A stretch of DNA of 64,000 bases, taken from the NCBI RefSeq assembly GCF_007860135.1, contig NZ_SJPV01000001.1:358939-422938 (forward strand), given 5' to 3'. The position numbers were made by a program, and so were the translations under genes. How positions within the stretch are numbered: position 1 is the stretch's first letter; each line of letters begins with the position of its first letter. This document shows, piece by piece, positions 13,482 through 29,613 of this stretch. Under the pieces are notes generated by a model. That model was not told the origin of the DNA, searched no databases, and saw nothing but the letters and a program-made list of their open reading frames with translations. Origin of the DNA: Novipirellula artificiosorum. GTDB lineage: Bacteria > Planctomycetota > Planctomycetia > Pirellulales > Pirellulaceae.

Positions 13482-14063
13482 GATCGCGAGCCCCGACAAT
13501 GCGAGTAGGTGACGATGCCATTTCAAGCTGCCGCGAGCGAGTGAAATCGATCACTTGAACCCTGGCAGCTTGCACACGGTACCGAGCCGCCGGCGAAACG
13601 GTACCGGCGACGATGGGTTCTGCTCTTTGCGCCGTCATTCGTTGTTGAAATGCTGCGATCATATCCCGCAACAAGTGTGTGTCCTGCATGCGACAACCCA
13701 AAGTGCAAGTGACCAATATAGAGACGAATCGACCGGCGGAATGCCCTAGACGTTTTCGATTGGAGCCCAAATGACCATCTAGCTCGGTTGCATCGATTTC
13801 GTTCGAGTTTTTCCGATTGCTTGCTGCTCTAGCAACGCATGTACACTCGATCCACCTTCTTACAGGAAAGCCTTTTGCCCCATGATCTAGCCGTTCGAGA
13901 AAGCGGTATCGACCAGCAATGGCCGCTGTGGCTCCCACGCTGCAACATCAAAAAAAAAATCGCTCTCGCAAAGCCCCCCCCCTTCTGGGCCGGCTCATCG
14001 TCTATATTGGGTGGTAAGACAACGTTGAGGAAAGAAAAACACCTACACCAGGAGCCCCCCGCA
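13482..14063. other. Intergenic region with homopolymer tracts
   Basis: This 580-base gap separates divergent genes and should hold both promoters. No convincing gene is seen; reverse-strand open frames here have no recognisable features. Runs of A (from 13949) and C (around 13974) sit 90-110 bases before the PEP-CTERM gene and are potential slippage sites. Confidence 0.4.
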
Positions 14064-14834
14064 ATGACAAAACCCAATTTCTCCGCGCTAGCAACGTCGC
14101 TATTGTTTCTTATTCCGTTGGCACCCTGTCAAGCATCTTTGATTGCACATTGGACCGGCGACAACACCGCGAATGATAGCTCTGGAAACCTGCACCATGG
14201 AACGCTATCCGGTGATACCAACTACGTAACAGGTGTCGTCGGCCAAGCCTTTTCCTTCGACGGCAATGGTGACTATGTCAGTGTCAATCCGTCCGCTTCG
14301 CTCGAACCGAGCACGATCTCCGTAACCGCGTGGCTGAAGATTCCGGATCAATCCCGCTTGCGCATGGTAGCGGATAGCAGTCATGGTTCGGGGAAGGGCT
14401 GGGCACTGCAGATTCGCGACACCGGAAGCGTCTCCTTTGCCTATGGCAATGGAAGCGCGTTTCCAGAAGTCATCTCCGTCGATACGGTTGACGATGATGC
14501 GTTTCATCATGTTGCCGCGGTCAAAGACGCGACGACGATGACGATCTATATCGATGGCATGTTTGATCACAGCATTTCCTACGTCGGAACGGCGGCCGCG
14601 TCGGGGCTTCCCGTTCGGATCGGATCTTGGCTTGGTGGAGGCCGAGACTTACAAGGTCTCGTTGACGACGTTCGGATCTACGACAACGCCTTATCGGCGA
14701 GTGAGGTAAGCAGCTTGGCCTCTGCCGTCCCGGAACCGTGCAGTCTTCTCTTTTTTGCATTCGCGAGCGTAGGAATAGCCATCCGTCAAAGGCGGCAACA
14801 GCAGGTAGGGAACGATCGCATTCGTCATTCGTGA
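14064..14834 (+). CDS. LamG-type concanavalin-fold protein with PEP-CTERM anchor
   Basis: From ATG 14064 (AGGAG upstream) the 256-residue product has a signal peptide (ATSLLFLIPLAPCQA), a LamG/concanavalin-A-like jelly roll (LIAHWTGDNTANDSSGN, FSFDGNGDYVSV, TAWLKIP, HHVAAVKD, GLVDDVRIYDNALSASEV) and a C-terminal sorting signal: VPEP, a hydrophobic stretch and an RQRRQQQ tail. PEP-CTERM proteins are processed by an exosortase, which is not in this window, and delivered to the surface or exopolysaccharide matrix. The domain probably binds carbohydrate. Confidence 0.85.
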   Translation: MTKPNFSALATSLLFLIPLAPCQASLIAHWTGDNTANDSSGNLHHGTLSGDTNYVTGVVGQAFSFDGNGDYVSVNPSASLEPSTISVTAWLKIPDQSRLRMVADSSHGSGKGWALQIRDTGSVSFAYGNGSAFPEVISVDTVDDDAFHHVAAVKDATTMTIYIDGMFDHSISYVGTAAASGLPVRIGSWLGGGRDLQGLVDDVRIYDNALSASEVSSLASAVPEPCSLLFFAFASVGIAIRQRRQQQVGNDRIRHS

Positions 14835-14846
14835 TCGCAGACGGTC

Positions 14847-16202
14847 CTAAGATTGCCAACCCAATGGCAGATCGGTTTTTGTCGCTTGCAAGATCGTGCG
14901 GATCGCCTTGCGAGTGTCGGAATCCAGGTGTGAATATTCATCGGATGGATTCTGGCCGTTGAGAACCGCCCCAAGCTGGTGATAGACCTGGCTTTTTAGG
15001 GGTGCAACCAACGAATCAAATGCGGACGAATAGATCAGGTAGCTGCACGGGTACTCCAACAGACGCGTTTTCAGGTTTAAGTCACGAAGTGACCGACCGG
15101 AATCATCCGTTGGACCACGACGAACAAATGCTTCGGAAAAACCGGACGTTCCCTTCACGTTCGATGTGAGCAGGGTCTCGCCAACAAACAACATGCCGTC
15201 AACGACCTCCTTGGCCGCTTGCGAAATCACGAGATCCAATTCTTGCGTGGCATCGGCAGGAACAGGTGTTGCTGTGTCAGGATTCCCTAAACCGTAAGCC
15301 ATTTCATGATCGTACTGGGCACGCCGCACCCGGAAGTTCGCTCGTGACATCGTGTTGTGCATTTGGGTTTGATGTTCCAGAACCATCAGCGCCACAATGT
15401 CGCTGTAGGGCGTCAGCCAATCGTCGGTTTGAAACCGTCCCTTTAAGTCCAGTAAATTTTCATCCCCGCGATTCGTCAATTCGCCGCTTTGCACGATCGC
15501 GTTGCCCATGTGCTTCATTTCGCCAGCCTCACCGCTGACATACCAACCGCCCCATCGCTCTGCGAACGGGCTGGAATGGTCGGTGACAAACGATGCTTCC
15601 TGTGCGTCGATACTGCCATCGTATTTCGGCATCACGCTGCGAACGGTATGCCCCGGAACGCCTTGCGTGAGCGTCGTTGCGTGACAGGACAAACATTCAT
15701 AGTTGGCACGAAGAATGTAAGCCTTTCGCGGCGTCATGTTGACTCGATAGAACGCAGCACCGAGTTGGGGATCGGTCGTCGACATTTCAATCAGCGAACT
15801 GCCTCGAACCCAAGCGACATAGGTATCGTCATTGAAGTAAATCGCTCGAGGACTTCTTGGCGAAATGTGTCGAATCTGCAAACTGGTCTTTGAAAAGACC
15901 AACACCTGACTGGCGGGGGAGATATCGAGCGCTGCGAGCAGCGAACGCAAGTATTCCGTACCGCTCTCATATTCGAGTTCGACCGATTTCGCCTTCAGCT
16001 TTTCGGCAAGATCGCTGATTGCATTGTCGCCATCGGTCTCGCTGTAGAGAATAGGAGGCTCTTCGATATTGAATTGAGCGACGCAAGGAGAGCAACCGAC
16101 GAAGACCCAGACAAGAACCACGCAGCCGAACGGATTCGCAGCGCGGTACTTCGTTTCATTTCTTCGTCCACCCATCGGCGGACGTCCCATCAGCAGTTTC
16201 AT
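14847..16202 (-). CDS. Secreted single-heme (CxxCH) protein
   Basis: A 451-residue product with an N-terminal signal (FGCVVLVWVFVGCSPCVAQ) and one c-type heme motif, CLSCH, at about residues 169-173. Regions such as VLVFSKTSLQIRHISPRSPRAIYFNDDTYVAWV precede the heme site. Multiple CxxCH motifs are absent, so it is not a multiheme cytochrome. I do not recognise a named family, though planctomycetes often carry this type as a hypothetical cytochrome. It follows the octaheme gene at a distance of 190 bases on the same strand and may be the last gene of the respiratory cluster; a perfect 9-base inverted repeat lies just before its start. Confidence 0.7.
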   Translation of the reverse strand: MKLLMGRPPMGGRRNETKYRAANPFGCVVLVWVFVGCSPCVAQFNIEEPPILYSETDGDNAISDLAEKLKAKSVELEYESGTEYLRSLLAALDISPASQVLVFSKTSLQIRHISPRSPRAIYFNDDTYVAWVRGSSLIEMSTTDPQLGAAFYRVNMTPRKAYILRANYECLSCHATTLTQGVPGHTVRSVMPKYDGSIDAQEASFVTDHSSPFAERWGGWYVSGEAGEMKHMGNAIVQSGELTNRGDENLLDLKGRFQTDDWLTPYSDIVALMVLEHQTQMHNTMSRANFRVRRAQYDHEMAYGLGNPDTATPVPADATQELDLVISQAAKEVVDGMLFVGETLLTSNVKGTSGFSEAFVRRGPTDDSGRSLRDLNLKTRLLEYPCSYLIYSSAFDSLVAPLKSQVYHQLGAVLNGQNPSDEYSHLDSDTRKAIRTILQATKTDLPLGWQS

Positions 16203-16213
16203 GGTTCTCTTTC

Positions 16214-16241
16214 ACAATCGTCATGGTTTCAGGACGATTGT
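16214..16241 (-). promoter_or_regulatory. Inverted repeat in leader of the single-heme gene
   Basis: ACAATCGTC and GACGATTGT form a perfect 9-base inverted repeat with a ten-base spacer, ending 11 bases before the start codon at 16202 (read on the minus strand). The ribosome site AAAGAG lies between it and the ATG. It may be an operator or a transcribed hairpin affecting translation. It sits in the only sizeable gap within the respiratory cluster. Confidence 0.45.
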
Positions 16242-16392
16242 AATCGATCGTCTTTGGCGAAGTACACCTTAGGTCGCTTGTTCAAGCTGGTTGAGACCCT
16301 GCCGACGGACTTGGGCCCAATCGGACCTGCTCGGACCTGCTCGGTCAATCGACGAGTTATCGCGAGCGTGCTCCGCAAGCTCCGTGCCACGG

Positions 16393-17895
16393 CTATTCGT
16401 AGCGTTGCTTGAACTCATCCTGTCGCCGTTTGCGTTCTTCCAGTTCTTCGGGCGATAATTTGTTGATGTACCAGCGATGGTTGTCATCGTTGAGCACTTC
16501 CTCAAGCTTCGCAGCCAAAGTCTCCGCCGCCGCCACTTTTTCGGGATCATCCGATTCTTTTCCCTTCTCGATGAGTTCTTCGAGTTCAGGAATCATCTTG
16601 CTGTAGAAGTGTTTTGCCACTTCATACGTTCCGTGCCAATGCGTGTAGTCCGGCCCCATCATTGCAGCACCATGTCTCGCGCGACGACCTTCATGGTGCC
16701 ATATTTCAAACCAAGTCCAGTCCAAATCGTTCGAGAATCCAGCAGGTCGCATCAGCGGTTTTGCAAGATTGTAGAGTTCCACACCTGGCTCGGCGAACTT
16801 ATCGTGATAAAGATCGATCAGGCTGTCGTATTGGACATAGAAGTTGTCGACCCACTGTTGTTCGTGGCAATTCAAACAGACGTTCTGCATGTTCCCCCGA
16901 CGAGTTTCCCAATTGATATTGGCTCCGGGGAGCCCCATCTTCTTATCGCTGACTTCCGGGCGGACCGAGATCGCGGGACGATTGTTCCAGCTGATTCGCA
17001 TACCGACATCGTGCGTTACCGCCATGCCTTCCACGGCCGCCTTGTTCTTCGTTGCCGGACGATCCGGCGTGGCACTCATGTGGCAGGTCGCACACGTTGG
17101 TGCTTGATGATAATCCTCACCGACCACCCATTTGGACGAATCCATATTCATCTTATCTTTGAACGCTCGGTAAGCGATGCCATGTTTGGACTCGTAAAAA
17201 ATCTCGATTTGCGGATGATCGGGACCCATGTGACATTTTCCACAATTGTCTGGATTCCGAGCCTGTTCCGCCGAGAAGGAATGGCGACTATGACACGCCG
17301 AGCAGGAACCTTCGGAGCCATCGGGATTGATTCGTCCGATCCCCGTATTGGGCCAAGTCGCCGGATCCAGTTTACCACCCGGCAATACTTTGACTTCCGT
17401 ACCGTGACAGGTCCAACAACCGTTAACCGCCGCAGCACTGATGCCATTCTGGAAGGACGGCGTCACCATCCCGCGATTACCCTCGACCACTTCAGCCAAG
17501 GTATTGTCCAGCGATCCCATGATTCGGCCGGCCTTGGAGTGGTGAGAATCCGCAAACTCACCGCCTTCCTTCGTATGGCAACGCGAGCAATCTTTGGGTG
17601 ACACGATCGTGGCGATCCATTGGCCTTCGTGGTTGAACGCATCCACTTCACCTTCTTCGGCTGCATGACATTCGTAACACCCAACGTTGGCTCGAAAATG
17701 TTTGCTGTTCCCCCACTGTTGATAGATCCCGTGATCCGTGTCTTTGTGACACTTGAGGCAGTCCTTAGTGATCGAAGACATTTCCGGCAAACCCCACGCC
17801 TGGGAGTAGGCCAACGACGAAAAGCCAAATCCAAATAGCAAGAAAGTGAAAACAGCGTTCCATCGAGTCGCCCGAATCGTAAATCGCTGGTTCAT
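16393..17895 (-). CDS. Octaheme c-type cytochrome, hydroxylamine oxidoreductase (HAO) family
   Basis: The 500-residue exported protein has exactly eight CxxCH motifs, at residues 46, 73, 103, 160, 198, 218, 268 and 340, with a helical C-terminal third. This spacing and the segment GRRARHGAAMMGPDYTHWHG (about 403-422) fit the HAO/HaoA family, which catalyses hydroxylamine oxidation or nitrite/hydroxylamine reduction in the periplasm. A conserved-looking Tyr417 lies where the catalytic-heme cross-linking tyrosine of oxidative HAOs could be, but I cannot confirm alignment. The partner genes (ferredoxin, NrfD, tetraheme) suggest electron exchange with the quinone pool, which favours a reductive role. 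No cytochrome c-554/c-552 gene typical of ammonia oxidisers is present. Separated from the membrane-subunit gene by 18 bases. Confidence 0.85.
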   Translation of the reverse strand: MNQRFTIRATRWNAVFTFLLFGFGFSSLAYSQAWGLPEMSSITKDCLKCHKDTDHGIYQQWGNSKHFRANVGCYECHAAEEGEVDAFNHEGQWIATIVSPKDCSRCHTKEGGEFADSHHSKAGRIMGSLDNTLAEVVEGNRGMVTPSFQNGISAAAVNGCWTCHGTEVKVLPGGKLDPATWPNTGIGRINPDGSEGSCSACHSRHSFSAEQARNPDNCGKCHMGPDHPQIEIFYESKHGIAYRAFKDKMNMDSSKWVVGEDYHQAPTCATCHMSATPDRPATKNKAAVEGMAVTHDVGMRISWNNRPAISVRPEVSDKKMGLPGANINWETRRGNMQNVCLNCHEQQWVDNFYVQYDSLIDLYHDKFAEPGVELYNLAKPLMRPAGFSNDLDWTWFEIWHHEGRRARHGAAMMGPDYTHWHGTYEVAKHFYSKMIPELEELIEKGKESDDPEKVAAAETLAAKLEEVLNDDNHRWYINKLSPEELEERKRRQDEFKQRYE

Positions 17896-17913
17896 AGTTG
17901 CATCACTCCCTCA

Positions 17914-19155
17914 CTAGGTCGTCCCCGAAGATGGGGTGTTTTCAGTAGGTTGGCCAAAACGCTTTTGATAAGTCACTTCGCCCGCCAGCACTGGGACACT
18001 GACACGAACAAAGATGGTGTAGATCAATAGTCCAAACGCCCAAATCCCTAAGCAAATCAGGATCTCGTGTGTCGTCGGAACGTATTCGACAATTTCGCCC
18101 AGTGGAGTGGGCACGAAGGCGGGAACGATCAGTCCCATTCCTTTTTCGATCCAAATGCCAACGATCGCCAACACGCAGGCAACATTCAGCCAACGCATTC
18201 CGCGGGACGCAGGCAGCATCACCAAAATCGTCGCCAACACATTCATGCCGACCGCGGACCAAATCCAAGGCACAAGGGCATCGCGACCGTGCAGCCCAAA
18301 GTACAAGTAGCGGGCCGAGGCGACGTGCGCGGAATCGGTATAGAACTCGGTAAACACCTCGCACACTAACAAGAACAGGTTGATAATCAACGCGACTTGA
18401 ATGATCCGCCGCAGCGTCAACAATGCGTCATTCGCGACTTGATGCCGGGAAAACCGGCGAACGATTTGCAGCGTCAAGATGATAAACGCAGGCCCCGCGG
18501 CAAAGGCACTCGCTAAGAACCGTGGTGCGATGATGGCTGAATTCCAAAACGGCCGGCCACCGAGCCCGACGTACAGAAACGCCGTAACCGTATGGATGCT
18601 GATCGCCCACACAATCGCAATAAACACAAACGGGATGTAGAAGATCGGCGAGGGTTTTCGGCCACAGTAGGCACAATAAATCAAGTATCCGCAGATGTGC
18701 AAGTTCAACAGTAAATAGCCGTTCAACGCGATCACATCCCACGTCAACATCGAAAGCGGGAAATTGAAACGCCAAAGCAAGTGCATGAAGCGATCTGGGC
18801 GTCCCAAGTCAACCGTGACGAACAGCAAGCACATGATGATCACCGAAACCGCCAGTAATTCACCAAAGATCACCACATCGTGTAGATGCAGGTTGCGATA
18901 AACGTAAACGGGGATAACCAACATCGCAGCCGCAGCGGCCAAGCCCACCAAATAGGTGAAGTTGGCGATGTAGAGCCCCCAAGACACTTGGTCGGTCATC
19001 CCCGTCGTGACCAAACCGTTGACGAGTTGGTAACAATAGGCATTCAAACCCACGAGTGCAAAGACGGTAAGAATCGTCATCCAAAGGTGGTAACGCCAGT
19101 CGCCAACAAAGCTGAGACGGAAACAATCCCAGAGGAACGTGAGGTATTTCTTCAT
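17914..19155 (-). CDS. NrfD/PsrC-type quinone-interacting membrane subunit
   Basis: A 413-residue protein with about ten hydrophobic segments, of the NrfD/PsrC/DsrP group that exchanges electrons with menaquinone or ubiquinone. Landmarks: the N-terminal SWGLYIANFTYLVGLAA segment, DLGRPDRFMHLLW and the TWDVIALNGYLL region, which are characteristic of this family. Its start overlaps the stop of the ferredoxin gene by four bases, showing translational coupling, and the HAO-family gene follows after 18 bases. With the ferredoxin it makes a membrane electron-transfer module for the periplasmic cytochromes. Confidence 0.9.
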   Translation of the reverse strand: MKKYLTFLWDCFRLSFVGDWRYHLWMTILTVFALVGLNAYCYQLVNGLVTTGMTDQVSWGLYIANFTYLVGLAAAAAMLVIPVYVYRNLHLHDVVIFGELLAVSVIIMCLLFVTVDLGRPDRFMHLLWRFNFPLSMLTWDVIALNGYLLLNLHICGYLIYCAYCGRKPSPIFYIPFVFIAIVWAISIHTVTAFLYVGLGGRPFWNSAIIAPRFLASAFAAGPAFIILTLQIVRRFSRHQVANDALLTLRRIIQVALIINLFLLVCEVFTEFYTDSAHVASARYLYFGLHGRDALVPWIWSAVGMNVLATILVMLPASRGMRWLNVACVLAIVGIWIEKGMGLIVPAFVPTPLGEIVEYVPTTHEILICLGIWAFGLLIYTIFVRVSVPVLAGEVTYQKRFGQPTENTPSSGTT

Positions 19156-20183
19156 ACGTCACTTGCCTCCGGTTCTGCGCCCACGGACGGGTCATCGATG
19201 GAATCGTGATAGCGACTGCCGCGTTCATCGAAGTAGTAGAAGAATCGTGGGATCGTGCCCACATCCTCTTTCAAGACATAGACACGTTTGTGCTTCAGGA
19301 TGTAAGCCACTTCGCTGTTGGGATCCAACACGTTACCAAACTTCCGCGATCCCGTCGGGCAGACTTCCAAACAGGCGGGCAGCTTTCCGACGCGAGTGCG
19401 CTGCAGACAAAACGTACACTTTTCCATCACGCCTTTGTCGCGAGGTCGGTTCGACAGATAGGCCATCTGCGGATTGATCTCGTCATCCGGAATGCGTGGC
19501 TCCGCAAAATTGAATCGCCTGGCCCAGTAAGGACATGCCGCTTCGCAATATCGGCAACCGATGCACCAATCGTAGTCGATCACCGTGATCCCATCGGCTT
19601 CTTGCCAGGTTGCTTCGACCGGACAAACCTTCACACATGGCGGATCGGCACATTGGTGGCATTGCACTGGCAGGTACCACTTGTCCGGATTTGGAACGGT
19701 CTCGGGGTCGTAGTGATGATTCGCTGTCTCGACGTTGATACTGCCTTTTTCCATCTCCAGCACACGAATGTACTGAATCTCAGGTGCACGCGATTGATTG
19801 TTTTCATTGACACACGCGTGGACACATTTTCGGCAACCGATGCAACGGCTGATGTTCAGGCCATAGACAAATTCGACGCCGTCAAGAGGCGGTGGATCTA
19901 CGATCTCCGCTGCGACATGACGCCGGCGCTGAACCTCATCCGCAATCCGTTGCAAGACCTCTTTTTTGTCTTCGTCTGTCATCTCCTTGTAGTGTTTCTG
20001 CAGAAATTCTGCGGGCGTCGGCAGGTCCTCGGGATCGAGATCCTTAAGAGGAGAGATTGCTGCGGCAAAGGCAGCCGCACCTGCAAATGCAGCAGCACCG
20101 AGCGTCAAGAATCCGCGACGAGTGGAATCGTTCGCGTCCGTCTCGGTCTTAGCAGAGGTGCTTGCAGAGTCCGGAGTTGCCAT
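19152..20183 (-). CDS. Tat-exported ferredoxin-like subunit with four [4Fe-4S] clusters
   Basis: The 343-residue product has a twin-arginine signal (STRRGFLTL) and a hydrophobic stretch rich in alanine, so it is exported folded. Four cysteine clusters follow: CIGCRKCVHAC, CHQCADPPCVKVCP, CIGCRYCEAACP and CTFC..CLEVCP, as in PsrB/DmsB/NrfC/DsrO proteins. It should carry electrons between the NrfD-type membrane subunit and periplasmic cytochromes. It overlaps the membrane-subunit gene by four bases and follows the tetraheme gene by three bases. Confidence 0.92.
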   Translation of the reverse strand: MATPDSASTSAKTETDANDSTRRGFLTLGAAAFAGAAAFAAAISPLKDLDPEDLPTPAEFLQKHYKEMTDEDKKEVLQRIADEVQRRRHVAAEIVDPPPLDGVEFVYGLNISRCIGCRKCVHACVNENNQSRAPEIQYIRVLEMEKGSINVETANHHYDPETVPNPDKWYLPVQCHQCADPPCVKVCPVEATWQEADGITVIDYDWCIGCRYCEAACPYWARRFNFAEPRIPDDEINPQMAYLSNRPRDKGVMEKCTFCLQRTRVGKLPACLEVCPTGSRKFGNVLDPNSEVAYILKHKRVYVLKEDVGTIPRFFYYFDERGSRYHDSIDDPSVGAEPEASDV

Positions 20184-20186
20184 CGC

Positions 20187-20879
20187 TTAGTGTCCTCCCT
20201 CGCTCTCGCCGTTCCCGGCCCGATCATCGTTTGATTGCTGAGAGATCATGAGCGGGTTGTGGCTATGATCGTCCGATGCAACGTCCTGTGGGCCCATTCG
20301 CAACGTGCTCGGCCCCGGTGCGGGCTGCATCCTTTGGAAGGGCGGATGATGCGGGTCATGGCATTCGATACACTTACGCCGTGTCTGCTCGCCTTGCTCG
20401 GCATCCCAGTAACCATTGCTACGACCGTGTGAACCGTGCTGCCAATCCCGGTAGACTGGACCGTGACATTTTGCACACACGAGTTGAGGTTGGTCCCAGG
20501 GGATTTCATCACCCAGATCGTCAATGAACGCATCACGGTTTTTGGGGTGGTGACAGTTGAAGCAACGCGTGTTGATCCCATGTTGCAACTTGATGTCCGT
20601 GTGCTGCGTTAGCGTCCTTAAGGTTTCAGGTGGTGAGGGCAGAACCTTGTGACATTCGCTGCACTTGAACGTGTAGACCCTTGTCTTGAACAGCGGGGCC
20701 ATGGCGGGAGAGCGCACCGGGGTCGTATCGGTGACCCAATCCGCAACGGCTGCTGGCTCACCGACCGGACTGCGGAACGCAAGCGGTCCCAAGACAAGAA
20801 AGGCAGCGGTGGCCAGTAGAACGCCAGCGACCCACAAAGGTTGTGGTTTTTGCCCCCCGCTCTCTCCGCCGCCTGACAT
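20187..20879 (-). CDS. Membrane-anchored tetraheme c-type cytochrome
   Basis: From ATG 20879 the product is 230 residues with an N-terminal membrane anchor (WVAGVLLATAAFLVLGPLAF) and four CxxCH sites: CSECH (73), CFNCH (106), CAKCH (135) and CIECH (170). It is likely a periplasmic-facing electron carrier for the neighbouring ferredoxin/NrfD module. In-frame codons upstream to 21200 are rejected because they overlap the divergent gene's promoter and lack features. It is the first gene of the minus-strand respiratory cluster. The heme spacing does not clearly match NapC or NrfB, so I call only a tetraheme cytochrome. Confidence 0.85.
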   Translation of the reverse strand: MSGGGESGGQKPQPLWVAGVLLATAAFLVLGPLAFRSPVGEPAAVADWVTDTTPVRSPAMAPLFKTRVYTFKCSECHKVLPSPPETLRTLTQHTDIKLQHGINTRCFNCHHPKNRDAFIDDLGDEIPWDQPQLVCAKCHGPVYRDWQHGSHGRSNGYWDAEQGEQTRRKCIECHDPHHPPFQRMQPAPGPSTLRMGPQDVASDDHSHNPLMISQQSNDDRAGNGESEGGH

Positions 20880-21088
20880 AAGAGCTTTCTTTCCTGATGA
20901 AAGAATGACGGCACAATCGTGCGGAGAACTGACTCCGAATCCAGAATCACGATCGACCATCTGCTTCTGTTCTTCATCTGCGGCATTTGTCAAAGCTGAA
21001 CCGAGCGTGCCGATCGTGGGCTGTGAATAAGATGCCAGCCGATCGTAGCCTACGAAAAGTATCGAATCCCGTTTTGAGAGTGCGACCG

Positions 21089-21607
21089 ATGTGTGATTCC
21101 CGAAGGACCGTCGTCGGTCTTTTCCTTGCATTTGCCGTTCTCGCAGCCAAGGCGGACCAGCCAAACTCGATACCACATCCGTCCCTCGCAGCAACGCCAT
21201 CCGAAGCCAAAGTCAGGGCGCGGCTGCTGTTCGAGACGATCAATGGATCACTGCAAGTCATGCATCGCGACTTCTTTGATGATGAGGACACCTTTGCCAT
21301 CCCATCGCGATCCCTTGAAGACGTCTTTAGCGAGCTGAAGAAAAGTCATCACGTCGAGATCAGGTGGATGACCGTGAACGCGGATGTGTTGAACGTCGAT
21401 CATGACGCGAAATCCGAATTCGAGAAAGCAGCCGTCAAGGCGTTGTCAAAAGGCGAACCTGCATTCGAGAAAACCGGCGATGGGATCTATCAATACGCGG
21501 GAGCCATTCCCTTGCGGTCGGAATGCTTGAAGTGCCACCTACGACGTCGTACCCGTAACGAGCCGCGCACCTCCGCGTTGACGATCACGATTCCAATCAA
21601 CGAGTGA
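21089..21607 (+). CDS. Secreted single-heme protein, Tll0287-like (DUF3365)
   Basis: The product from ATG 21089 is 172 residues with a signal sequence (VVGLFLAFAVLAAKA) and one CLKCH motif at residues 146-150. The layout, ARLLFETINGSL early, EDVFSELKKSHHVEIRWM in the middle and GAIPLRSECLKCH near the end, resembles the DUF3365/Tll0287-like family of heme-binding PAS-like domains. It may act as a sensor or electron carrier in the periplasm. It is divergent from the tetraheme gene, with about 210 bases between. The family name is from memory. Confidence 0.65.
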   Translation: MCDSRRTVVGLFLAFAVLAAKADQPNSIPHPSLAATPSEAKVRARLLFETINGSLQVMHRDFFDDEDTFAIPSRSLEDVFSELKKSHHVEIRWMTVNADVLNVDHDAKSEFEKAAVKALSKGEPAFEKTGDGIYQYAGAIPLRSECLKCHLRRRTRNEPRTSALTITIPINE

Positions 21608-27487: not shown

Positions 27488-28813
27488 TCAGTTTGCCATC
27501 GCGACGGCGCAATCTGCCGCGCCGTCGGGGCCGATCAATTGCAAGTTGAATGCCTCTTGCAACTTCGCCATCACGTTGGGAGAAATGAACGCGGGGGCTG
27601 CCGGTCCGATGCGGACGCCTTGAACGCCCAGCGAAAGCAACGTCAACAAGACGGCGACCGCTTTCTGTTCGAACCAACTGAGCACGATCGTCAAAGGCAG
27701 ATCGTTCACCGAACAATCGAATGCATCGGCGAGTGCCACAGCCACCGCAATAGCGCCATAGGCATCGTTGCACTGGCCCATGTCCATCAAGCGGGGCAAT
27801 CCGAGGTGCTCACCATAATCGAAGCCATTGATCCGATACTTGCCACAACCGAGCGTCAAGATAAAGCTATCCTCGGGCGTCGCACGTGCGTAATCGCTAT
27901 AGTAGTTCCGTCCTGGCTCGGCTCCATCACAGCCGCCAATGACAAAGAAGTGACTGATGTTTCCACCTTTGACGGCTTCAACGATCTCGGCAGCCTTGTC
28001 CAAAATCACGGTGCGGTGAAAACCAACCGTCGACTGTTTTTCGATGTTTTCGGGGCAAGGCTCACATTGCTTTGCACACTCAATCACCATCGAAAAATCA
28101 TCGTCGGGCACTTTTTTGCCTTCGGGGACTGCCGTGACACGCGTGTGGAAGAGCCGATCCTTGTACGTGTCACGCGGCAACAAGATACAATTGGTTGTCG
28201 CCAACACCGCCCCCGGAAAGGCTGCAAATTCTGTTTTCTGTTTTTGCCACGGGCCGCCAAAGTGTCCTGCCAGATTGGGATGGTCACCGAGTTCTGGATA
28301 CATATGTGCCGGCAACATTTCGCCGTGGGTGTAGACGTTGACGTTGCTGCCTTCGACTTGCTTGAGCAAGCGATGTAGGTCGACCATGTCATGGCCGGTG
28401 ACAAGGATCCCTGGGCCCGCTTTGGTTCCATGATCGACGGTCGTCGGCCGCGGCTTCCCGTAGGTCTCCACATGCCCCTCATCGAGCATTTTCATGACCT
28501 TCAAGTTAATCTCGCCACATTTCAGAACCAATTCCAGCATGCTGTCGACATCAAAATTGACGTTCGTGACGGTCGAAAACAATGCTTCTTCGATGAAGGC
28601 ATTGACTTCTTCGTCGGTTTTCCCCAGTCGGCGTGCATGATGAGCATAGGATGCCATCCCTTTGAGCCCGTAGAGCAGAATCTGTTGAAGTGATTCGACG
28701 TCTTTGTCTTTTCCACATACGCCAGGCCTCTCGCCAATCGAACACCCCACCCCCCGGGATGTCTGTTCGCATTGGTTACACAGAAGTGGCTGTTCGACGG
28801 GCATTGCAGTCAT
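27488..28813 (-). CDS. hcp: Hybrid cluster protein (hydroxylamine reductase), class III
   Basis: A roughly 441-residue Hcp, shorter than the about 540 residues of class I/II, as in class III forms that lack part of the N-terminal helical domain. An N-terminal [4Fe-4S] motif CNQCEQTSRGVGC..GVC is present. Hybrid-cluster ligands are visible in order: TGHDMV (His), THGEML (Glu), NCILLP (Cys), GGCDGAEP (Cys), TLGCGKYRING (Cys), GQCNDAYG (Cys) and WFEQKAVAVL (Glu). Hcp is a cytoplasmic NO reductase or hydroxylamine reductase induced by nitrosative stress. ATG 28813 has GGAATG at good spacing; ATG 28822 is also possible. It is divergent from a Crp/Fnr regulator with an FNR-type palindrome between them. 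Confidence 0.92.
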   Translation of the reverse strand: MTAMPVEQPLLCNQCEQTSRGVGCSIGERPGVCGKDKDVESLQQILLYGLKGMASYAHHARRLGKTDEEVNAFIEEALFSTVTNVNFDVDSMLELVLKCGEINLKVMKMLDEGHVETYGKPRPTTVDHGTKAGPGILVTGHDMVDLHRLLKQVEGSNVNVYTHGEMLPAHMYPELGDHPNLAGHFGGPWQKQKTEFAAFPGAVLATTNCILLPRDTYKDRLFHTRVTAVPEGKKVPDDDFSMVIECAKQCEPCPENIEKQSTVGFHRTVILDKAAEIVEAVKGGNISHFFVIGGCDGAEPGRNYYSDYARATPEDSFILTLGCGKYRINGFDYGEHLGLPRLMDMGQCNDAYGAIAVAVALADAFDCSVNDLPLTIVLSWFEQKAVAVLLTLLSLGVQGVRIGPAAPAFISPNVMAKLQEAFNLQLIGPDGAADCAVAMAN

Positions 28814-28864
28814 AGGGATCATTCCACGATTGGAGTAAGATTGGTTTTTTCAACAACGAACAAG

Positions 28865-28923: not shown

Positions 28924-29613
28924 ATGAATTTATCCAGCGGCCCGCGTCGCGACGAAGAGGTTATCGAGTCCTGTGCCCTGTTTCGTGGGCTCGACGCCGA
29001 TCAGCGATCGGTCATGACGTCAATGGCGGTGCGACAGCGGTTCAAACAGGGGGCGCAGATCTTCATGCAAGAGCAACCGTGCCCCGGGATCTACATCGTC
29101 GATCACGGGTTGGTGCGGGTGTTCCGGCTGGCGCCGAACGGCCAGCAGCACGTCTTGCACCTGTGCGGTCCCAATCAGACCTTCGCAGAAGTCGCTGCGA
29201 TCGGCGGTTTTGCGCTGCCTGCTTGTGCCGTGACCACGCAACCGACCGGTTGCGTCATGATCCCGACCGATCGACTGCAACAGGAACTCGCCGAGAACCA
29301 TGATTTGTGCCGCCAATTGTTGACCGGGATGGCGTTTTGGGTCCGACACTTTGTCCAACTTCTCGAAGACATCGCGTTACGTGACGCAATGGGTCGCGTC
29401 ACGCGATTGCTTTGCGACACGCCCTGCAATCCCAGCGGACTGCTTCGACTGCCCGGAGCGAAGAAGGATCTTGCGAATCATTTGAATCTGACCAGCGAGA
29501 CCTTCTCGCGAGTGCTGCGACGACTTTGCGAACAAGGCATCCTCGAATTCAATTCCAACCGCTCGATCAGGGTCATCGACGCGGCTGGGCTGGAGCGCTT
29601 GGCACGCGAGTAG
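28924..29613 (+). CDS. Crp/Fnr family transcriptional regulator (Dnr/NnrR-like)
   Basis: A 229-residue regulator with an N-terminal cyclic-nucleotide-type beta barrel (about residues 15-125, containing FKQGAQIFMQEQ and GLVRVFRLAPNG) and a C-terminal winged helix. The recognition helix ETFSRVLRRL has the Glu-x-x-Ser-Arg arrangement that FNR uses to read TTGA-type half-sites, matching the palindrome just upstream. The cysteines present (near residue 17, 51 and 85) do not make an obvious FNR [4Fe-4S] set, so an NO- or heme-type sensor like Dnr/NnrR is possible. Adjacent to hcp, it likely controls that gene. Confidence 0.85.
   Translation: MNLSSGPRRDEEVIESCALFRGLDADQRSVMTSMAVRQRFKQGAQIFMQEQPCPGIYIVDHGLVRVFRLAPNGQQHVLHLCGPNQTFAEVAAIGGFALPACAVTTQPTGCVMIPTDRLQQELAENHDLCRQLLTGMAFWVRHFVQLLEDIALRDAMGRVTRLLCDTPCNPSGLLRLPGAKKDLANHLNLTSETFSRVLRRLCEQGILEFNSNRSIRVIDAAGLERLARE

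Follow-up and report, generated by a model that had tools for sequence, protein, structure and literature searches.

A four-gene cluster located near nap in Thermosulfurimonas dismutans, encoding a pair of multiheme cytochromes together with an iron-sulfur protein and a membrane anchor, was reported in PMC4911364, whose passages on the cluster assign it no firm function. In PMC5276818, the same locus is described for T. dismutans and Dissulfuribacter thermophilus, where one of the cytochromes is recognized as homologous to HaoA and the anchor is placed in the NrfD family; nitrite reduction or, alternatively, a role with sulfur compounds is proposed there. Here, we analyzed a stretch of 64,000 nucleotides from the genome of the planctomycete Novipirellula artificiosorum (contig NZ_SJPV01000001.1, positions 358,939 to 422,938; hereafter, the window), which contains an operon for a tetraheme cytochrome (TH4), a ferredoxin (FD), an NrfD-type membrane subunit (NrfD), and an octaheme cytochrome (HAO). 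This operon is a widespread and better-supported variant of the locus described in 2016–2017 in those two other bacteria, and the wide distribution and the residue evidence are new beyond the latter. An earlier sequence-only reading of the window had taken the combination to be undescribed, a view that PMC4911364 and PMC5276818 contradict.

Planctomycete hao-like genes have been weighed as markers of anammox or nitrification or as genes for putative Onr (PMC10732223 and PMC11266412). The relevant parts of PMC11266412 treat the hao-like octaheme genes of Phycisphaerae as putative Onr and note that nirK and nirS are missing, whereas those of PMC10732223 report that metagenome-assembled genomes of planctomycetes contain hao as well as other NrfD clusters and do not give the HAO-NrfD combination; several of these genomes, recognized by their OFTM names, are among the loci analyzed here. 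A search confined largely to open-access papers turned up no biochemical study of the complex and no paper charting its occurrence in Planctomycetota or Verrucomicrobiota.

We propose, with moderate confidence, that the products of the 4 genes form a periplasmic N-oxide reductase that draws its electrons from quinol and most likely acts on nitrite. If this is true, anammox/nitrification or Onr annotations of planctomycete hao-like genes mislead, and genomes of the Planctomycetota–Verrucomicrobiota–Chlamydiota (PVC) group that seemingly encode no nitrite reductase would gain one, keeping nitrogen as ammonium or releasing NO.

A four-gene operon conserved across several phyla

The operon TH4-FD-NrfD-HAO spans positions 20879-16393 of the window on the minus strand and consists of the following genes (aa, amino acids):

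20187..20879, minus strand: TH4, membrane-anchored tetraheme cytochrome c in an NrfB-like position (230 aa, 4 CXXCH motifs, one helix)
19152..20183, minus strand: FD, Tat-type ferredoxin, NrfC/DsrO-like (343 aa, RRGFLT motif, 16 Cys in four [4Fe-4S] motifs)
17914..19155, minus strand: NrfD, integral membrane subunit of the quinone-binding type (413 aa, about 10 hydrophobic helices, PF03916)
16393..17895, minus strand: HAO, putative catalytic subunit, an octaheme cytochrome c whose N-terminus is signal-like (500 aa, 8 CXXCH motifs, PF13447)

The frames, order, strand, and junctions of these genes agree with the sequence-only reading: 3 bases separate TH4 from FD, FD and NrfD overlap by 4 bases, and 18 bases separate NrfD from HAO. 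TH4 carries its CXXCH motifs at residues 73, 106, 135, and 170 and a hydrophobic helix at residues 17-35; a scan of the longer frame 20187-21200 gave weak Cytochrome_C7 and NrfB-type matches, the NapC/NirT model scored 21.3 bits, below its threshold of 24.1, and a PDB search returned no match at an E value of 0.01. The RRGFLT motif of FD lies at residue 22, and the nearest NCBIfam model is DsrO (165.6 bits, below the cut-off of 200), with the NrfC model giving 102.9 bits for a cut-off of 377.6; the best PDB matches of FD are what we take to be Fe-S subunits of the alternative complex III, arsenate reductase, and polysulfide reductase type. NrfD matches Pfam PF03916 (140 bits) and passes the NCBIfam DsrP model (413 bits, cut-off 350). 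The claim of the earlier reading that an HAO-family octaheme is joined here to a ferredoxin/NrfD quinone module is supported. With a GC content of 0.540, the operon is similar to the window (0.555) and gives no signal of foreign DNA.

The four-gene operon is real and conserved across several phyla. A conservation scan of named GTDB contigs returned 219 encoding loci, the best 80 of which were kept, and its figures describe close orthologs; 15 of the 80 loci, with fewer than 3200 bases upstream, were set aside, leaving 65 informative contigs. TH4, FD, and NrfD all stand beside the octaheme in 48 of the 65, an adjacency that the sequence-only reading had singled out for checking and that proves common in relatives, and FD and NrfD only do so in 2. 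For the broader comparisons, a module locus was defined as one with FD or NrfD near the octaheme (n = 79; 59 from named contigs and 20 from further genomes), and all 3 partners are present in 68 of these. No two of the 79 module octaheme proteins are identical, and 2 genomes (G078 and G249) contribute two loci each. The 59 named module loci, most of them metagenome-assembled, belong to Planctomycetota (28), Verrucomicrobiota (21), Hydrogenedentota (2), Pseudomonadota, Myxococcota, and Acidobacteriota (1 each), 6 phyla in all, with 5 unassigned. The Myxococcota-assigned contig (L186:8480-12621) carries the same 4 genes but arranged as octaheme-TH4-FD-NrfD. The octaheme gene is patchy among members of the window's family, being absent from both same-genus genomes examined.

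Homolog groups were binned by blast score, and group B, the nearest sister octahemes, comprises 24 loci, including the truncated or split close orthologs L085 and L148. Cytochrome b is encoded in the flank of 11 of these loci and a Rieske protein in that of 9 (for example, L089:9810-11440 is a group B locus); each also occurs in one module locus, the assignments being based on Pfam matches of one representative each. These neighborhoods suggest that the sister octahemes use another quinol module. A conserved protein of about 173 aa without Pfam or NCBIfam match (HYP173) is encoded 3′ of the octaheme in 45 of the 79 module loci (for example, L058:9964-10776) and was not found in the window.

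The sequence-only reading had counted five genes in the unit, the fifth being the gene that follows HAO:

14847-16202, minus strand: single-heme protein gene, unassigned to any family, starting 190 bases after HAO

Its product has an N-terminal hydrophobic stretch and, at the thresholds applied, matches nothing in Pfam, NCBIfam, or the PDB; a blastp comparison (1e-5) with the genes flanking 139 related loci, 119 of which extend at least 2000 bases downstream of the octaheme, likewise gave no homolog. On the strength of the 190-base gap and the lack of homologs in the 139 flanks, we rejected this gene as a subunit; the first 4 genes of the earlier grouping stand, and the unit is four genes, TH4-FD-NrfD-HAO, not five. 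Two further neighbors are a Tll0287-like single-heme protein (20987-21607), divergent upstream of the operon and without homologs in the flanks of the 139 related loci, and a LamG-domain protein (13839-14834) with a weak, sub-threshold C-terminal PEP-CTERM match.

Family and active-site residues of the octaheme

The octaheme passes the PF13447 cut-off (71 bits, cut-off 21.9) and is the sole match to this family in the 9.2-Mb genome. An HAO profile built from 27 sequences was compared with the PDB, where the best chain was 4qo5 (377.6 bits, profile positions 36-435), followed by the cross-linked-type HAO chains 1fgj, 6m0p, and 4fas (about 156 bits) and by 6h5l (146 bits), 4n4j (107 bits), 6t5e (99 bits), and 6hif (89 bits); octaheme nitrite reductase chains scored 25-26 bits and NrfA-type pentaheme chains about 21-28 bits. 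No chain named tetrathionate reductase was retrieved in this search at an E value of 0.001, and the NCBIfam model for octaheme tetrathionate reductase is not among the 5 families listed. To judge from these matches, which are to HAO-like proteins, the octaheme is an HAO-family protein, as the earlier reading had proposed, and the grouping outside HAO that would have spoken against that reading did not appear. An AlphaFold model of the octaheme, based on 12 aligned sequences, reached a mean predicted local distance difference test (pLDDT) score of 52.9 and was not used. In a quick tree of 96 octaheme rows, module-linked proteins and their close relatives form one branch (support 100) of 61 rows, 45 with the module, 15 without it, and 1 from group B, which is separate from oxidative-enzyme-like proteins and from 6h5l-like ones.

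Three positions of the protein bear on its probable chemistry:

17215..17220, minus strand: codons of Asp226-His227, aligned with the Asp-His after the matching CXXCH of N. europaea HAO (1fgj)
16660..16662, minus strand: codon of Met412, eight residues ahead of Trp420 in the alignments
16636..16638, minus strand: codon of Trp420, in the alignment column of the cross-link tyrosine of oxidative HAO

Column 420 is Trp in 79/79 module-linked homologs, in 24/24 distinct close orthologs without the module, and in 22/22 of group B; in group C (n = 9), 7 proteins have Trp and 2 have Phe. Met412 is invariant in the 134 distinct homologs, in which Asp226 is likewise kept in 134/134 and His227 in 132/134; this Asp-His pair presumably has a catalytic role. 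All of these counts leave out L085 and L148 (truncated or split), one incomplete group C locus, and two identical copies.

The sequence-only reading had pointed to Tyr417 as the possible cross-linking tyrosine. This residue is Tyr in 68 of the 79 module homologs and otherwise Ile (5), Trp (3), or Phe (3). When the octaheme was aligned with the octaheme paralogs of one genome, a 4n4j-like protein (1224 bits) and a 6hif-like protein (1363 bits) were found to have Tyr at column 420, and two proteins have Trp there, one of which was checked and is 6h5l-like (549 bits). Because Trp420 fills the column that holds Tyr in the 4n4j- and 6hif-like proteins, Tyr417 is not the cross-link residue, and an oxidative reading based on it was rejected. 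The window HAO thus lacks the tyrosine of oxidative HAO and HDH (cross-linked P460, heme 4 of the neighboring subunit) and has Trp at the tyrosine position with Met eight residues earlier, the Met-Trp spacing that marks epsilon-Hao (PMC8940962). Cross-linked enzymes are assigned to oxidation, and the absence of the tyrosine is linked with reduction, in PMC12758564; judged by the alignments, Trp420/Met412 is a reductive residue pattern.

Nitrate and nitrite reductase genes and the proposed direction of electron flow

From gene order, conservation, protein family, the residue column, and the Nap and NrfA distributions, we infer the formation of a complex, its direction, its substrate, and its product. 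Quinol would be oxidized at NrfD, and electrons would pass from NrfD through the four Fe-S clusters of FD to the tetraheme TH4 and on to the octaheme HAO, an order of carriers modeled on the NrfABCD scheme of PMC12285233. At a predicted non-cross-linked active site (Asp226/His227, with Trp420 for the tyrosine), the octaheme would reduce nitrite, yielding hydroxylamine and/or ammonium or else NO. The mechanism is supported in outline, with nitrite the most likely substrate, and the earlier suggestion of a quinol-linked enzyme for hydroxylamine, nitrite, or NO is probably correct.

A NapA-like gene occurs in the flank of 19 of the 79 module loci; in 15 of them, it has the same orientation as the octaheme gene and follows it at a distance of no more than about 1 kb. 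NapD and a NapB-like tetraheme often accompany it. The naming relies on a curated scan of one group B representative (1001 bits, over the cut-off of 904), and the module-linked NapA-like proteins are 37-60% identical to the NapA of the window genome. That genome carries a second TH4-FD-NrfD set on another contig (L206:7906-17639; 35/55/56% identical to the set of the operon), which is divergent from NapD-NapA-tetraheme-NapG, after which come NrfA (5 hemes) and NrfH; NapA scores 868 bits here against the cut-off of 904. Among 60 relatives, 13 gave an NrfD match of at least 300 bits, and in 11 of these 13 loci TH4-FD-NrfD is divergent from Nap genes; of the remaining 2 loci, one is cut off by the end of its contig at NrfD, and the NrfD match of the other has an identity of only 42%. 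Such gene arrangements show that this type of module serves periplasmic nitrate reduction in the window's group, and the position of TH4-FD-NrfD beside Nap supports electron flow from quinol. In an NrfD tree, 12 Nap-linked rows form one branch (support 100), and the window's NrfD falls within a 51-row set (support 99) of 50 HAO-linked rows and L261, the contig of which ends after NrfD; the 74 HAO-linked rows do not form one branch (3 changes), and the tree, a quick one with several long branches, does not fix the deep order. Given the separate NrfD branches, a recent duplication of the Nap-linked module as the origin of the HAO-linked one is not favored.

The distribution of NrfA points in the same direction as the residues. 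Strong PF02335 (NrfA) matches were found in none of the 19 other genomes with module-linked HAO, in 3 of the 4 genomes whose close octaheme stands without a module, and in 8 of the 11 genomes with only a Nap-linked module. When the window genome, which has both NrfA and the module-linked octaheme, is included, NrfA is present in 1/20 versus 11/15 genomes (p = 3e-5, a test that takes the genomes to be independent although they are not). A match was considered strong above 200 bits; this threshold was chosen once the scores were known to leave a gap between 279 bits and the weaker pieces (about 70-78 bits for second pieces of the same genes and at most 31 bits for single pieces), and the 23 close-octaheme genomes in the comparison are 22 with more than 700 bits plus G009. 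Of the 11 Nap-only genomes, 3 lack NrfA, and 2 of these have HAO-type proteins; none of the 8 that have NrfA does.

Several observations weigh against a quinol-linked nitrite reductase. A close octaheme stands without any module gene in the remaining 15 of the 65 informative contigs. The enrichment of NapA is weak (19/79 module loci versus 6/60 without the module, p = 0.04), since group B also has some NapA, and NapA is not near the window's operon. A NapA-like match was obtained in only 9 of the 19 module genomes, namely 7 with at least 450 bits plus G230 and G256 (about 210-250 bits per piece, adjoining the module), with G420 and G360 (about 211-214 bits) left out, and no match in any of the 35 genomes is above the NapA cut-off. 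Taxonomy confounds the comparison of NrfA occurrence, as the 11 Nap-only genomes belong to the window's order and the 19 mostly to other families; moreover, G296 and G365, among the 19, share a family with a genome having ten octaheme paralogs, and missing NrfA is hardly informative there. The window genome itself has NrfA and NrfH beside its Nap locus, and the HAO complex would therefore not be its only nitrite reductase. Finally, NrfD modules can run towards quinone too, for example in Qrc (PMC8076601).

The explanation that competes best with respiratory nitrite reduction, although we consider it rather unlikely, is detoxification, in which quinol would drive the removal of NO, hydroxylamine (or nitrite) accumulating in nitrate respiration. 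It would account for an operon in a genome that already has NapA-type and NrfAH genes, and it is in keeping with the absence of the octaheme from the two same-genus genomes and with two divergent genes upstream of the operon:

27488..28822, minus strand: Hcp, hybrid cluster protein/hydroxylamine reductase (444 aa; PF03063, 417.8 bits)
28924..29613, plus strand: Crp/Fnr-family regulator, divergent from hcp (cNMP_binding and HTH_Crp_2 domains)

Hcp matches the NCBIfam hydroxylamine reductase model (630 bits, cut-off 367), and its gene lies outside the operon, 6.6 kb upstream, with several genes between. Hcp accompanies the module with a similar regulator in L118 and also occurs near it in L139, but these are the only 2 such cases among the 79 module loci, and Hcp was rejected as a conserved neighbor. 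Genome-wide, it is present in 8 of the 19 module genomes, 1 of the 4 without the module beside the octaheme, and 5 of the 11 Nap-only genomes, a distribution that makes the nitrite-hydroxylamine-ammonium route an option, not a rule. The lack of strong NrfA matches in all 19 module genomes favors a main-path role there, and the NapA-like gene directly downstream in 15 module loci also speaks against detoxification. For the window species, with its NrfAH, a role in detoxification or under particular conditions has to be taken seriously as an alternative.

Operation in the forward direction, with hydroxylamine, hydrazine, or NO oxidized and electrons passed to quinone as in aerobic and anammox oxidizers, seems improbable. 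The octaheme does belong to the HAO family, NrfD modules reduce quinone in other complexes (PMC8076601), and module-linked octahemes occur in G296 and G365, the family of which appears to consist of anammox bacteria; however, the cross-link column is Trp in all 79 module-linked proteins, the cross-linked enzymes being the oxidative ones (PMC12758564), and the Nap neighbors and the NrfA distribution fit reduction. Less probable still is a sulfur-compound reductase or general electron-transfer complex without action on nitrogen oxides: NrfD scores as DsrP, and PMC5276818 names tetrathionate or polysulfide as alternatives for the similar locus, but the Nap-linked NrfD of the same genome also passes the DsrP model (426 bits), so that this label is not diagnostic for sulfur, the annotated recurring neighbors include nap genes and no sulfur genes, and the octaheme matched no chain named tetrathionate reductase.

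Comparison with known systems

The T. dismutans and D. thermophilus locus, TDIS_0606-0609 in the former and compared with the window operon by description only, comprises a HaoA homolog, an NrfD-family protein, a 4Fe-4S protein, and a cytochrome c in matching order near napMADGH, whereas Nap lies on another contig in the window genome; both organisms form ammonium from nitrate without NrfA. Because signal peptides are lacking, the T. dismutans complex was assigned to the cytoplasmic face of the membrane (PMC4911364). Extending the comparison, we tentatively suggest that NrfA-independent, quinol-linked ammonification may be widespread in Planctomycetota, Verrucomicrobiota, and their allies: the HAO octaheme may have taken over an NrfBCD-type module and replace NrfA in many of them, the window species may add Hcp for a two-step route from nitrite through hydroxylamine to ammonium, and the HAO and NrfA families may share the same pair of alternative quinol modules.

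The best solved relative of the window HAO, PDB 4qo5, which we take to be an Ignicoccus octaheme cytochrome, differs from it in having Phe at the Trp420 column of the printed alignment and extra inserts; we know of no NrfD partner for this octaheme. MccA, presumably of another octaheme family, was not named among the chains retrieved by the HAO profile search of the PDB. A paper on an Ignicoccus-type octaheme cytochrome is cited in PMC8840924. The MccACD sulfite reductase shares with the window operon an octaheme, a four-cluster ferredoxin, and an NrfD-type subunit but, unlike it, has no separate tetraheme listed in the table of PMC8076601; that article lists NrfD-type complexes, including NrfABCD and MccACD, and the words hydroxylamine and HAO are absent from its main text. 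As to DsrMKJOP, the window's NrfD passes the DsrP model whereas FD fails the DsrO cut-off, and none of DsrM, DsrK, and DsrAB is among the nine genes annotated around the operon, no genome search having been made.

Two further parallels are systems described or proposed as nitrite-reducing. In NrfABCD, as proposed for the window operon, NrfD, a four-cluster ferredoxin, and a small multiheme cytochrome supply electrons to a nitrite reductase with several hemes (PMC12285233 and PMC8076601). Its catalytic subunit is the pentaheme NrfA, whereas that of the window would be the HAO-type octaheme, and NrfB is a soluble protein with five hemes, whereas TH4, with four, also carries a membrane helix; the overall anatomy of the NrfB/C/D module resembles that of TH4-FD-NrfD, although FD scores 102.9 bits with NrfC and NrfD scores as DsrP. 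The reverse-HURM of Nautilia profundicola, described with CycB in PMC3701875, and epsilon-Hao (PMC8940962) share a tyrosine-less, quinol-linked HAO octaheme with Met and Trp eight residues apart. Reverse-HURM is proposed to convert nitrite to hydroxylamine, on which Hcp then acts, as may also be the case in the window species. Electrons enter reverse-HURM through one NapC/NrfH-type tetraheme, CycB, and the window operon instead has TH4-FD-NrfD, TH4 not being a NapC/NrfH-type partner like that of HaoA-CycB. The window system may be regarded as similar in design to NrfABCD with an HAO-family protein replacing NrfA or to the Nautilia reverse-HURM with TH4-FD-NrfD replacing CycB.

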